A DNA stretch of 64,000 nucleotides from Bacteroidales bacterium (lineage in GTDB: Bacteria > Bacteroidota > Bacteroidia > Bacteroidales > F082): the NCBI GenBank assembly GCA_017461665.1, contig JAFTXI010000023.1, positions 20,108 to 84,107 on the forward strand. The letters are read 5' to 3'. Position numbers and translations under genes: made by a program. Below the pieces are notes generated by a model that had not been told where the DNA came from, did no database searches, and saw only the letters and a program-made list of their open reading frames with translations. The stretch's first letter is position 1. The number at the start of each line of letters is the position of its first letter. Shown here one piece after another: positions 59,933 through 64,000 of the stretch.

Positions 59933-60006
59933 AAGTCTATAAGTCTACGAGTCTGTGAGTCTATGAGTTTGGACTTATAGACTTATAGTCTTATTGACTT
60001 ATTGTC
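59933..60006. repeat. 8-bp tandem repeats in inverted arrangement
   Basis: Four units of GTCTATRA type (GTCTATAA, GTCTACGA, GTCTGTGA, GTCTATGA) are followed by four of the opposite sense (GACTTATA, GACTTATA, GTCTTATT, GACTTATT). AAGTCTATAAGTC (59933-59945) and GACTTATAGACTT (59972-59984) form a perfect 13-pair stem. It lies between riboswitch and btuB. Confidence 0.8.
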
Positions 60007-60014
60007 TCTGATTC

Positions 60015-60172
60015 ATGGCAGGTCTTCTGACTTACTCCTTACGCCTGACGTCTTCCCATCTTCTTGGAAAAGACAGTGACTTTCTGTCGGGCGCTGCAAG
60101 AGATCACAGCAGCGGGAACTGTCCGAGATTCACACTCGGTTCCCTATTGAGTCCTAACGGACACCACTTATC
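60015..60172 (-). promoter_or_regulatory. Cobalamin riboswitch upstream of btuB
   Basis: On the minus strand the conserved parts follow in order: GGTGTCCGTTAGGAC, AATAGGGAACCGAGTGTGAA, a GCTGCTGTGA segment, the B12-box-like AGCGCCCGACAGAAAGTCAC, GGGAAGACGTC and the closing AAGTCAGAAGACCTGCC. Length and order match the adenosylcobalamin aptamer. It would shut off btuB and btuG when B12 is plentiful. The space from its 3' end to btuB is 238 bases and contains the inverted tandem repeats and repeat copy 5, so the switch part of the platform is not obvious. Confidence 0.93.
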
Positions 60173-60177
60173 AGTTG

Positions 60178-60185
60178 CAAAGATA
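60178..60185 (-). promoter_or_regulatory. -7 promoter element of the riboswitch-btuB-btuG transcript
   Basis: Minus strand TATCTTTG, exact match; a TTTG lies 23 bases upstream (60209-60212). The start of transcription falls just before the aptamer. Confidence 0.65.
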
Positions 60186-60356: not shown

Positions 60357-61667
60357 TTATATATCTGTTTTTAATTCAGTCATTCTTTTATACCATTTTT
60401 GTGCTATAATAGATTGTTTCAACCAATAACATTTATCCTCTCCAATTTCATTAATTTTCATATATGTTCTCAATGAGCACCCTCTGCAAAATGAAATATG
60501 TATACAATTACTACAAATATCGTCATTAGGAAGAGTAAGATTCGAATTTATTGTACATAAAGGGTTATTAAATATCTCCCTAGAACCATCTTTTGCTATA
60601 TTTCCAATTATACCATAATCCGTGTATGTTGCACACATTCTTACAACGCCTTGTGGATTCATTACATATGTTCTTGAACCAGCACCACAACCTCCATTTT
60701 TTTGCAATTCATTCATTGAGGTATCATCTAATAGATGTATGTAACCTGAATACTTCTCAATGATACTTGTCTCATAATTCATCACATCAATAGAATTAAT
60801 GTTTGTCCAAAATTGTTTTAATTTTTCTGCTCTTCCAATTGGTATTACAGGTGAATATGTAAATTTCATTGCTCCTAACGACTTTGCATAAAGCAGTGTT
60901 TCTTCAATATGATTCCAATTATATTCATCAATTGTCATTTAAGCTCTAACAATAAATCCATTCTTTGATAATAATTTTATACCTTCTGTAACTTTTTTAA
61001 AAGAACCTTTTATGCCACTTTTCTTTTCAAATTCTTTTTCATCGTAACTATCAAGACTTATAGAAAACACCAATTTTGATTTATATGGTAACATACTATA
61101 TACAAACTTCTCTGTAACCATTGTTCCATTTGTTAATATCGATATAAGGGAAAGTCTGTTAAAGCAAAAATCAATAATATCAATAAAATTTGGATGTAAC
61201 AATGGTTCACCACCTGTTAATTCTACAACACTCAATCCTTTCATTGATAATTCTGTTATAATTTCATATAATTTACTTGTTTCCATAGCAGATTCTTCAA
61301 TCGATAATCCAGAATTGTTGTAGCAATAATAACATCTTAAATTACATTTATTTGTTAATTCAAAATGCATACTTTCTGGATAAAAAATACCACTTTCATC
61401 AACTATTCTATAATCAATATTATAGTCTCTTGTCTGATGATATGACAAATTATCTTCTAACAACAATTGCATAATTCCAAAAAAAGTTTTTGTCTTATCA
61501 GAATTAACATATTCTAAAGCATCATATAGTGATAATCCATCATATATTTGCCTAATAACTTCTGCGATATTTTTATCAATTTTTATATAATCACCATTAG
61601 GTGATAAAATTGTACCATGCTTTTTGTATATATACAGGGTACAATTATTATTCAAGTATAGATACAT
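60357..61667 (-). pseudogene. Radical SAM/SPASM peptide maturase, interrupted by one stop codon
   Basis: Two in-phase parts, 242 and 193 residues, are split by a single TAA (60939-60941) between GFIVRA and MTIDEYNWN. Residues 1-75 look like a PqqD-type precursor-binding domain (IRQIYDGLSLYDALEYVNSD). The radical SAM core has the cluster motif CNLRCYYC (Cys108, 112, 115) and ELTGGEPLLHP. The second part has a SPASM-like set of cysteines: GGCGAGSRTY, MCATYTD, CSNCIHISFCRGC and DKCYWL. Such enzymes crosslink or otherwise modify ribosomal peptides. The stop makes this copy a probable pseudogene, unless read through or a sequencing error. Last in the unit, after a 162-base gap. Confidence 0.8.
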
Positions 61668-61709
61668 AACAATTTGTTTTAGTTTTAAAATAAATGCAAG
61701 AATTAGAAG

Positions 61710-61820
61710 CGACTAAAAAGTCATTCTATCTTCTGGAGAATTGAATATTTGAAAATCATTCTCAGACAAGGAATACGGATAAAATCGTCCTCAAAAGCTA
61801 AAATTTTGACTTTTTAGTCG
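61710..61820. repeat. Inverted-repeat element (MITE-like or large hairpin)
   Basis: CGACTAAAAAGTCA (61710-61723) and TGACTTTTTAGTCG (61807-61820) are perfect 14-bp inverted repeats around 83 bases without a gene. Beyond them the flanks remain loosely alike (AATTAGAAG against AATGAGGC). It separates the three-helix protein from the radical SAM gene, and may be a small non-autonomous insert or a terminator-like structure. Confidence 0.65.
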
Positions 61821-61829
61821 GCCTCATTT

Positions 61830-62168
61830 TTAATCTTTATTCACAATTAACAAATACATAACAGAATAAATCACCAAGAAAATATACGATGAAAATATAA
61901 ACCACAAACCATCTTTAAATATGTCTATAAATAAATACGTTATTAAACAAGATATTCCCCACATTAATAAAGAAAAGGCAGATATTATTCGTTTTGTTTT
62001 TATTTCTTTTGGCGAGAAATCTTTATGTATAACATTCTTCCTGACAAAGAAGACTGAGGTTATTCCTAAACCAATAGCAGGAAATACTGCATAAGATCCT
62101 TGAAATAAAAAGGAAAATATTACTCCCAATGCTCCCCATATCAGATACAAATACTCTATTGTTTTCAT
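61830..62168 (-). CDS. Three- to four-helix membrane protein of the peptide cluster
   Basis: 112 residues. Hydrophobic helices at about 6-24, 27-42, 64-83 and 88-108, with a basic loop KNVIHKDFSPKEIKTKR between the second and third. No known family. Its ATG overlaps the stop of the Cys-repeat protein by four bases (ATGA), so the two are made together. Transport, immunity or anchoring of the peptide are all possible. Confidence 0.7.
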   Translation of the reverse strand: MKTIEYLYLIWGALGVIFSFLFQGSYAVFPAIGLGITSVFFVRKNVIHKDFSPKEIKTKRIISAFSLLMWGISCLITYLFIDIFKDGLWFIFSSYIFLVIYSVMYLLIVNKD

Positions 62169-62533
62169 ATTTCATTGCTATTTATAGTTATAGCTGAATC
62201 GAAGATTTTTGACACATTAGCAACAGCAAGTACAGCTGACGCAGCATTGCCACCTGCACATAATGCGCATATATAACAAACACTGCAAGCAGGACATGGA
62301 TTTGAACTTTGTTGTACAGGTGCATATAGATTTGTTCGCATTGCTATTTTAACGGTATCTATAATTTTCTCGTCAACATCGAACACCAAATTTGATTCAT
62401 TAAATAATTGTTCTAATGTGACATTCTTTTTACCAGGATTACTTTTTGCATCCATAACAACATTAATTACTTTTTGATAAAACTTATCAAATTCTTCTTT
62501 TTGTAAATAATTTACATTCTTTTTGTTTTCCAT
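62165..62533 (-). CDS. Candidate ribosomal peptide precursor with a Cys-x2 repeat
   Basis: 122 residues. Residues 1-76 are a charged helical leader (EEFDKFYQKVINVVMDAKSN, then TLEQLFNESNLVFDVDEKII). Residues 80-92 read CPACSVCYICALC: five cysteines at exact spacing of three, with no other Cys in the protein. A Gly-Gly pair (94-95) and an Ala/Val/Ser-rich tail follow. Leader plus Cys-rich core, plus a radical SAM enzyme with a PqqD-like domain in the same unit, suggests a precursor for thioether or other crosslinks. An iron-sulfur or metal-binding peptide is the alternative. Not a known family to me. Confidence 0.65.
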   Translation of the reverse strand: MENKKNVNYLQKEEFDKFYQKVINVVMDAKSNPGKKNVTLEQLFNESNLVFDVDEKIIDTVKIAMRTNLYAPVQQSSNPCPACSVCYICALCAGGNAASAVLAVANVSKIFDSAITINSNEI

Positions 62534-62552
62534 AATACTATAATTTTAAATT

Positions 62553-62591
62553 AAGTCACAATTATTCTTATAATCATCAAGGTTGTGACTT
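62553..62591 (-). promoter_or_regulatory. Hairpin in front of the precursor gene
   Basis: AAGTCACAA (62553-62561) and TTGTGACTT (62583-62591) form nine perfect pairs around a 21-base loop, between the membrane-protein stop and the precursor ATG. Without a T-run; it may protect or set apart the precursor part of the mRNA. Confidence 0.5.
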
Positions 62592-63158
62592 TTAACCCTG
62601 ACAATCATCATTTATCAAATTAATTTCCCTTTTTATATTTGTATATCTCTTTATTATTTTTTTGCTTAAAGATATTTCTACAATCACAATAATAGGAATC
62701 AGCAATAAGTAAAATCTAAGTGTATTTGCGCATATAAATGGTAGAACTAACAATATTAGCGGAAGCATTATCCAAAGCCAAAATAATCTTTCATAAATAA
62801 AATATAACTGGTTATATAATTCTTGGATAATAAATTTATTTACGGATACATCATATTTCTTTTCTTTAAAATAAAATAATAATGTAAAAACTCCTTTTAC
62901 CAAACAAAAAATAGTGATTATAACTGTTATAACAACAATAACAATGTCACGCATTACAAATTGCAAGCAGCTTATTCTTGTTAATATTATGATTGACAAT
63001 ATTATAGATGATATTATGCACATAATCCCAGAAATTACATTTTTATTTTTGTAAAGAAAAGACTTACGCGCTAATAAAAACGACATGTCATTATCATAAC
63101 TATCAGCACAATTTATTGATTCTTTAAGTTTTTCCGCTAAATTATCGTTTCCCATCAT
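62592..63158 (-). CDS. Membrane protein overlapping the sigma factor gene (possible anti-sigma or transport role)
   Basis: 188 residues with four hydrophobic segments (about 38-58, 68-92, 122-140 and 145-165); cytoplasmic N-terminus of 35 residues with a Cys in SINCADSYDN. It overlaps the sigma gene by 14-17 bases, as anti-sigma factors often do, but no zinc-finger anti-sigma motif is seen, and the size and topology differ from the usual FecR or RsiW types. So the anti-sigma role is a guess from position. Confidence 0.6.
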   Translation of the reverse strand: MMGNDNLAEKLKESINCADSYDNDMSFLLARKSFLYKNKNVISGIMCIISSIILSIIILTRISCLQFVMRDIVIVVITVIITIFCLVKGVFTLLFYFKEKKYDVSVNKFIIQELYNQLYFIYERLFWLWIMLPLILLVLPFICANTLRFYLLLIPIIVIVEISLSKKIIKRYTNIKREINLINDDCQG

Positions 63159-63636
63159 TTAATATCTTTAATTTTGATTTAATTCTTTGAATTTTAGTTC
63201 CCACATTGGTAACACTGATTCCTAATATGTCGGAGATTTCTTTATGCGACTTACTTTCGATATACAGATATAAAAGCACTTGTTCTTCCTGATTTAATTG
63301 TTTGATTAGTTCGTATAAACGTAAGATTACTGTTTCGTTATCATTTTCATCAACTATATTACTGGCATCTTCGTCATCAATATTTGCAAACTTGAACTTG
63401 TTTTTCCTACATTGCGAAATAGATACATTTAACGCCACTCTATAAACCCATGTTGACTCTTTACAATTATCTTGTTTTATAAATTTTGGATAACTTCTCC
63501 ATAAACCTAAAACAATTTCCTGAAATAAATCATCTGCAGTCAGTATTTGATTAATACGAGAATAGTAGCGACATATACTCAGAATCTGTCGCTTATTAGT
63601 GCTTATGAGTTCATGAAATCGTTTTTCTATATTCAC
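63142..63636 (-). CDS. ECF-type RNA polymerase sigma factor
   Basis: 164 residues. Region 2: TADDLFQEIVLGLWRSYPKF (about 33-52) and STWVYRVALNVSISQCRK (about 61-78). Region 4: LNQEEQVLLYLYIESKSHKE (about 113-132) and ISDILGISVTNVGTKIQRIK, the helix-turn-helix for the -35 site. The start codon is GTG (63636). It probably turns on its own cluster in reply to an outside signal, through the membrane protein encoded next to it. Confidence 0.92.
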   Translation of the reverse strand: MNIEKRFHELISTNKRQILSICRYYSRINQILTADDLFQEIVLGLWRSYPKFIKQDNCKESTWVYRVALNVSISQCRKNKFKFANIDDEDASNIVDENDNETVILRLYELIKQLNQEEQVLLYLYIESKSHKEISDILGISVTNVGTKIQRIKSKLKILNDGKR

Positions 63637-63661
63637 AATGTTAGCTGAGATTTCTTTAGTT

Positions 63662-63694
63662 AAAAGTTACAATTTCTATACTATATATATCAAA
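63662..63694 (-). promoter_or_regulatory. Promoter of the sigma factor/peptide cluster
   Basis: Minus strand TTTG (63691-63694), 21-base spacer, TAACTTTT (63662-63669), one base off TAnnTTTG. It ends 25 bases before the GTG start. Confidence 0.55.
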
Positions 63695-63897: not shown

Positions 63898-64000
63898 TGC
63901 TATTGGGTTTCCAAATCACCGTTTATTATAGTTGACACATCACAGATTAAGACTGGTTATGTTCAATGTTTATTTATAAAAAAAAATAAGGCTTTTCCAT

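Follow-up and report, generated by a model that had tools for sequence, protein, structure and literature searches.

The window analysed here, i.e., the whole stretch of 64,000 nucleotides from contig JAFTXI010000023.1 (positions 20,108–84,107 of the forward strand; assembly GCA_017461665.1) of a Bacteroidales bacterium, probably carries a unit for a ribosomally synthesized and post-translationally modified peptide (RiPP) of the sactipeptide type. The unit is read on the minus strand, leftward from position 63636 down to 60357, as a single run of five genes coding for a sigma factor, a membrane protein, the predicted precursor, another membrane protein, and a radical S-adenosylmethionine (SAM) enzyme with a SPASM domain. 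A RiPP had already been proposed for this place in an initial annotation made without database searches, and that proposal is supported by the conserved linkage of precursor and enzyme as well as by the likeness of the enzyme to sactisynthases. The features of the unit are as follows:

63142–63636, minus strand: extracytoplasmic function (ECF) sigma-70 factor of 164 residues, with a GTG start (Sigma70_r2, E 3.7e-14, and Sigma70_r4_2, E 3.2e-12, both over the cut-off)
62592–63158, minus strand: protein of 188 residues with four hydrophobic segments (Kyte–Doolittle), its gene overlapping that of the sigma factor by 17 bases
62165–62533, minus strand: predicted precursor of 122 residues, with a putative leader of 79 residues before the first Cys, the Cys run at residues 80–92, and a tail at residues 93–122
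61830–62168, minus strand: protein of 112 residues with four hydrophobic segments (Kyte–Doolittle), its start overlapping the precursor stop by 4 bases
61690–61832, minus strand: intergenic stretch predicted to fold into a long RNA hairpin (z-score −4.33; perfect 14-bp inverted repeat)
60939–61667, minus strand: first open piece of the radical SAM enzyme, comprising its N-terminal region together with that half of the radical SAM domain which bears CxxxCxxC (PF04055, E 5.8e-23)
60357–60938, minus strand: second open piece of the same enzyme, i.e., the remainder with the SPASM domain (PF13186, E 1.2e-5)

The layout given in the initial annotation is recovered almost throughout: all five genes lie in their place on the minus strand, the first one encodes an ECF sigma factor, the membrane protein next to it overlaps it, the second membrane protein, expected to have three to four helices, displays four hydrophobic segments, and the radical SAM/SPASM enzyme is interrupted by an in-frame stop codon, as described.

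The most characteristic component of the unit is the precursor. All of its five Cys residues fall within CPACSVCYICALC, each separated from the next one by two residues (x2 spacing), and none is located in the tail; five Cys at exactly this three-residue periodicity had been claimed from the outset. The pattern C..C..C..C..C is unique to the precursor among 921 stop-to-stop frames of at least 30 residues in the window. Shuffling the residues of the 234 window frames of at least 60 residues did not produce it in any of 200 rounds, nor did the precursor, shuffled 200,000 times on its own, yield it even once, so the five-Cys run is not a chance occurrence. Moreover, the five Cys and their spacing are invariant in all three precursors found, i.e., that of the window and those of two further genomes designated below as G456 and G535. 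Aligning the precursors, a check suggested in the initial annotation, revealed that the Cys-run segment (residues 80–99) is better conserved than the rest of the protein: identity between the window and G535 amounts to 11/20 residues for this segment, 15/69 for the leader, and 3/13 for the tail, the respective figures for the window and G456 being 11/20, 31/76, and 4/19. Behind the Cys run, N96 and A98 are the sole residues invariant in the three proteins. Judging by the aligned sequences, such conservation is that of a precursor in which the run of putative donor residues is fixed and the tail is free. Neither NCBIfam nor Pfam has a model that any of the precursors matches at its cut-off. The sub-cut-off matches of the window precursor (pitrilysin, E 0.0026; PGF-pre-PGF, E 0.034; DUF2019, E 0.097; CinA, E 0.14) were taken as chance.

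The distribution of the precursor and the enzyme was followed in two sets, 393 genomes of the order (including the window's own) and 173 genomes of the family. A clear precursor is present in three of the family genomes: the window's own, G456, belonging to the same genus (E 2e-25), and G535 (Bacteroidales bacterium ZodW_Metabat.88, contig JAFGYB010000018.1), belonging to another genus (E 6e-7). The enzyme, searched for with that of G535 as the query, was found at E ≤ 1e-30 in two genomes of the same set, namely G535 and the window's genome. Both are among the three precursor-bearing genomes; the chance of this would be 2e-4 if the genomes were independent, which related genomes are not. In both the window and G535, the precursor and enzyme genes belong to one run on one strand, and in G535 the precursor is directly followed by an intact enzyme of 463 residues. 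In G456, the genes for the sigma factor, the membrane protein, the precursor, and the second membrane protein come in the same order as in the window (identity of 46, 31, 40, and 28%, respectively). Thus, the co-occurrence that the initial annotation had proposed to look for is seen in two of the three precursor genomes, the third being limited by the end of its contig, and neither of the outcomes named there as refuting turned up: the precursors do not occur mostly without the enzyme, and in the search against Pfam at E up to 1, none of the three resembled an iron–sulfur or metal-storage family. In the order set, no clear precursor was recorded among the 392 other genomes, the matches at E 0.006 and 0.009 being devoid of the Cys run, and the enzyme profile at E ≤ 1e-35 gave the window's own match only. 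Overall, the predicted precursors represent a new family, clear in three genomes. It departs from the known ones in the taxonomic order of its hosts, in the long predicted leader formed by the 79 residues ahead of the first Cys, in having a fifth Cys, and in the ECF sigma factor and membrane protein as its uncommon putative regulators.

By its scores, the predicted maturase is nearest to the known sactisynthases. For the G535 enzyme, AlbA is the best of 18950 NCBIfam models (193.7 bits over residues 52–441, the next model reaching 102.5), and it also comes first for both pieces of the window enzyme (87.7 and 50.3 bits; next models 74.6 and 32.9), for an enzyme of Anaerococcus considered below (101.5 bits; next 66.7), and for one enzyme of Paraclostridium (110.2 bits; next 70.5). 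The best PDB relative of the enzyme profile is the sactisynthase SkfB (E 1.5e-25). As to the controls, AlbA was first in none of the four loci scanned out of 34 remote radical SAM loci, nor was it first for the maturase of a second RiPP cluster from the window's genome. A RumMC-type maturase used as a yardstick yielded RumMC (465 bits), PapB (160), and SCIFF (143), with AlbA outside the best 25 models. Among the ranthipeptide models, PapB matched the G535 enzyme with 69 bits, and SCIFF was outside its best 25. The two pieces of the window enzyme display 47% identity over 148 residues (first piece) and 41% over 194 residues (second piece) to the G535 enzyme, and the CxxxCxxC motif along with seven Cys of the SPASM region is common to both enzymes.

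Several known systems come close to the unit. According to PMC8172795, thioether bonds of the antibiotic thurincin H connect Cys4, 7, 10, and 13 with residues 28, 25, 22, and 19, respectively; its maturation by ThnB in Bacillus thuringiensis (type I) combines a Cys at every third residue of the core start with a radical SAM enzyme possessing a SPASM/twitch region, as is the case here. Compared by description, thurincin H has four Cys and a precursor of 40 residues, whereas here there are five Cys and 122 residues; the thn cluster as described there includes genes for a protease and an ATP-binding cassette (ABC) transporter, neither of which was seen in the window unit, and the pair of the ECF sigma factor and the membrane protein is a feature of the latter. 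The donor Cys cluster of the window precursor lies at the N-terminal side of the core (80–92 of 122, with the core start assumed), and clustering at this side is given as the layout of sactipeptide subfamily I in PMC13239113. AlbA (subtilosin A) and SkfB provide the best NCBIfam model and the best PDB relative of the enzyme, but their host phylum differs and the AlbA cut-off is far off. The characterised sactipeptides named in passages of PMC8172795 come from Bacillus, Ruminococcus/Mediterraneibacter, and Streptococcus. Still, as an idea, the presence of this class in Bacteroidetes is not new: a thuricin CD-like, sactibiotic-like cluster was predicted in 2011 for Bacteroides sp. 3_1_19, as stated in PMC3132745. 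By its description, that cluster is set apart from the window unit by two radical SAM genes, a predicted peptide of 54 residues with a GG motif, and an ABC transporter.

A core with the same five-Cys spacing was encountered on a plasmid. The enzyme search covered 72,556 plasmids, 292 of which matched, and among the 30 matches listed the lowest E-value (3e-22) belonged to pAPRE01 of Anaerococcus prevotii. There (L063:4333-6032), a gene for a peptide of 41 residues, MKPEIVAMGNGCKLCAGCTGCMFCGPSPAAGVGVAGFVGFF, with five x2-spaced Cys precedes an AlbA-type enzyme by 212 bases. This unlabelled pair (APRE_RS09990/APRE_RS09345) resembles the window unit in the type of the enzyme and in the five x2-spaced Cys followed by a G and a PAAG stretch, and differs from it in the size of the peptide, in the mere 11 residues before the first Cys, and in the ABC transporter and two-component genes nearby. 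It is distinct from the Apre_1837/1838 cluster treated in PMC3132745, which, judging by size and label, is located about 4.5 kb away; the plasmid apparently harbours two sactipeptide-type clusters. Beside the enzymes of Paraclostridium, no Cys-run peptide was found at the two loci fetched out of three. These comparisons also bear on the initial statement that no described family has such a core or such a sigma/membrane pair. As to the core, this goes too far, given the Cys residues 4, 7, 10, and 13 of thurincin H and the five-Cys peptide of Anaerococcus; it does hold for the precursor, which matches no family model at the cut-off, and, within the openly licensed literature of PubMed Central, for an ECF sigma factor accompanying a sactipeptide, of which no report was found. 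The same literature yielded no report combining AlbA, sactipeptides, and Bacteroidota, and for RiPP, ECF sigma factor, and radical SAM together the single report returned deals with methanobactins.

The product and the biological role that we infer for the unit would be the following. The N-terminal part of the precursor (122 residues) would be bound by the radical SAM/SPASM enzyme, which, by analogy with known sactisynthases, would take a hydrogen from the alpha carbon of acceptor residues behind the Cys run. Each of the five Cys would then be joined to a backbone carbon in the stretch rich in Ala, Val, and Ser (about residues 96–111), giving rise to a nested thioether hairpin like that of thurincin H, with up to five rungs rather than four. 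Going by gene position, expression of the unit would be triggered by the ECF sigma factor, the overlapping protein of 188 residues might restrain the sigma factor or sense a signal, and the protein of 112 residues might protect the producer or aid export. A bolder version of this proposal, which we regard as rather unlikely, envisages a Bacteroidales family of long-leader sactipeptides with five bridges, governed by an ECF sigma factor of its own. The membrane protein paired with this factor would sense either the envelope or the peptide itself, and the maturase of the window might even act as two polypeptides via a stop–restart at TAA-ATG. If true, the product would be a bacteriocin or a signal that is self-induced or coupled to envelope stress. 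Control by an ECF sigma factor would be an uncommon mode of regulation for the sactipeptide class, and G535, with its intact precursor–enzyme pair and clear five-Cys core, offers a ready test case.

A number of observations weigh against assigning the unit to the sactipeptides. The enzyme of the window is split within the radical SAM domain by a single TAA in frame, which an ATG follows immediately (60936–60941, minus strand). Neither a transporter nor a protease gene was seen among those of the unit. The enzyme of G535 and the window pieces score below the curated AlbA cut-off of 850 bits (NF012164), hence the enzyme is not filed as AlbA, and a NirJ2/AhbD-like radical SAM control (L022) attained 103.5 AlbA bits, about as many as the Anaerococcus enzyme, but with 18 models above. 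The conservation of the acceptor residues is too low to fix the register of the bridges. In G535, the genes for the sigma factor and membrane proteins do not adjoin the precursor–enzyme pair, and the assembly of G456 contains no orthologue of the enzyme (best radical SAM at E 1.9e-14); since its contig breaks off some 200 bases past the second membrane protein gene, the G456 enzyme is either missing or unassembled. In a tree of 25 rows (AlbA itself not being among them), the Anaerococcus enzyme does not come out as the sister of the window/G535 pair, a radical SAM enzyme of Bacilli being closer by path, so the Cys run common to both may have arisen by convergence, and common descent of the cores is not shown. 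Finally, the PqqD-like N-terminus ascribed to the enzyme in the initial annotation, i.e., the leader-binding domain to be expected, is not established: PqqD was not matched in the window or G535 enzymes at E up to 1, remained below the cut-off in the Firmicutes relatives (E 0.04–0.19), gave in a single profile–profile comparison with two PqqD rows a probability of 18% (E 0.0013 for this one comparison), and, in the form of a PqqD structure, was reached by an N-terminal profile only at E 0.098, behind two unrelated chains.

Alternatively, the enzyme might exert another radical SAM chemistry, e.g., ranthipeptide-like links to beta or gamma carbons or a carbon–carbon link, with the Cys run serving otherwise. 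The type of the bond is not readable from the sequence, and the ranthipeptide model PapB matches as well; yet with the G535 enzyme AlbA is 91 bits ahead of the next model, the RumMC-type yardstick scores quite differently, and the location of the Cys cluster corresponds to sactipeptide subfamily I as described in PMC13239113. We consider a different chemistry rather unlikely. Far less probable still is that the 122-residue protein binds iron–sulfur clusters or metals and has the radical SAM gene as an accidental neighbour. Ferredoxins do carry C-x2-C-x2-C runs. At the same time, no Fer4 or other metal-protein family was matched by the three precursors, all of them feature four consecutive x2 spacings (the window protein having no other Cys at all), and the precursor–enzyme linkage is kept across two genera.

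A more weighty alternative, to which we assign a substantial likelihood somewhat short of even, is that the unit was acquired from elsewhere, once worked, and is now in decay as a pseudogene without a role in its host, which would be compatible with the sactipeptide reading for the family as a whole. It is favoured by the in-frame stop in the enzyme, by the presence of the unit in few genomes, and by base composition. The G+C content of the window unit is 27.4% vs 35.6% in the rest of the window (where the lowest sampled stretch of 3338 bases had 28.4%), and that of the G456 copy is 39.6% vs 52.3% in its flank. Such a low G+C content relative to the surroundings in the two sigma-bearing copies suggests a gain of the unit from elsewhere; the G535 pair, with 54.6% vs 49.8% for its 16-kb locus, is not low, which speaks against this scenario. 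So does the state of the window copy: the remaining frames of the unit are intact, and the second piece of the enzyme retains an open frame and the SPASM Cys without any further stop or frameshift. Because the ATG directly follows the TAA, a restart of translation there and a functional split enzyme are possible; a Met is found at the equivalent place of the intact G535 enzyme (M265). A recent nonsense change, an assembly error, and a split enzyme cannot be told apart as the origin of the TAA. With its enzyme split by the stop, the unit as assembled here is probably silent, unless both pieces of the enzyme cooperate or the TAA results from faulty assembly.

Returning to the other components of the presumed sactipeptide unit, the sigma factor shares 46% identity over 151 residues with the one in the equivalent place in G456, and the protein of 188 residues shares 31% over 155 residues (E 1e-25) with the neighbour of that sigma factor. 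The latter protein belongs to no Pfam or NCBIfam family at the cut-off; by its position, it is a putative membrane anti-sigma factor or sensor. The protein of 112 residues (28% identity over 98 residues to its positional counterpart in G456, E 2e-11) is, likewise by position, a putative immunity protein or export helper. Elsewhere in G535 (L088:1459-2623), another ECF sigma factor gene is directly followed by one for a protein of 218 residues that looks membrane-like by eye. Its sequence has no similarity to the 188-residue protein, and the idea of assigning the 188-residue protein to a common anti-sigma family was rejected.

The gene for the 112-residue protein is separated from that of the enzyme (60357–61667) by a gap of 162 bases. 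The hairpin-forming stretch of 143 nucleotides (61690–61832), lying between the precursor and membrane protein genes and the enzyme gene, is single-copy in the genome and may perhaps set the ratio of precursor to enzyme. Downstream, the unit is closed by a cobalamin riboswitch (60000–60183, minus strand; 101 bits) situated upstream of a frame of 647 residues, which on reading resembles a TonB-dependent receptor. On the other side, window base 64000 is the end of the contig (84107 bases long), where the view upstream of the sigma factor gene stops.

Broader searches returned mostly remote candidates. The window precursor alone matched by pattern 114 stretches in genome contigs, none of which encodes a relative, and weak matches in G213, G279, G491, and G519 (E 0.001–0.009) were dropped as lacking the C..C..C..C run. 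A class-wide precursor profile over 395 genomes produced six weak matches besides the window. One of them, CGICGICGICGICG in G713, is a simple repeat lying within a short frame and was discarded, inspection by eye of 6.5 kb having revealed nothing that resembles a radical SAM gene; the other five were scanned for the five-Cys run only, with 0 matches. Against plasmids, the whole-unit DNA gave 0 matches in distant mode, and the precursor (L013) gave, at E up to 10, a single match with E 2, taken as chance. The scan of viral contigs revealed one remote radical SAM enzyme. A scan of genome contigs with the enzyme alignment led to 35 loci, of which only L021, i.e., the G535 contig, is close. The stretches fetched for the remote loci L022–L055 contained no five-Cys run; two short frames with four spaced Cys were seen in L024 and L055.

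The genome of the window contains a second RiPP cluster, located on another contig than the window unit (G000:C2; L079:2720-9085, minus strand). Its precursor of 68 residues ends with CKFVCTSCTACTTCTVCTTEVGGGSGNIGGNPIS and has six Cys, the last five of them x2-spaced; no NCBIfam model was matched by it at E up to 0.1. The radical SAM/SPASM enzyme of this cluster (489 residues) is little like the relative of the window enzyme. The sole C39 peptidase found in the window's genome belongs to this cluster, the same search having found none in G535: it is part of an ABC transporter of 750 residues, accompanied there by a frame of 713 residues that by eye resembles a TonB-type receptor.

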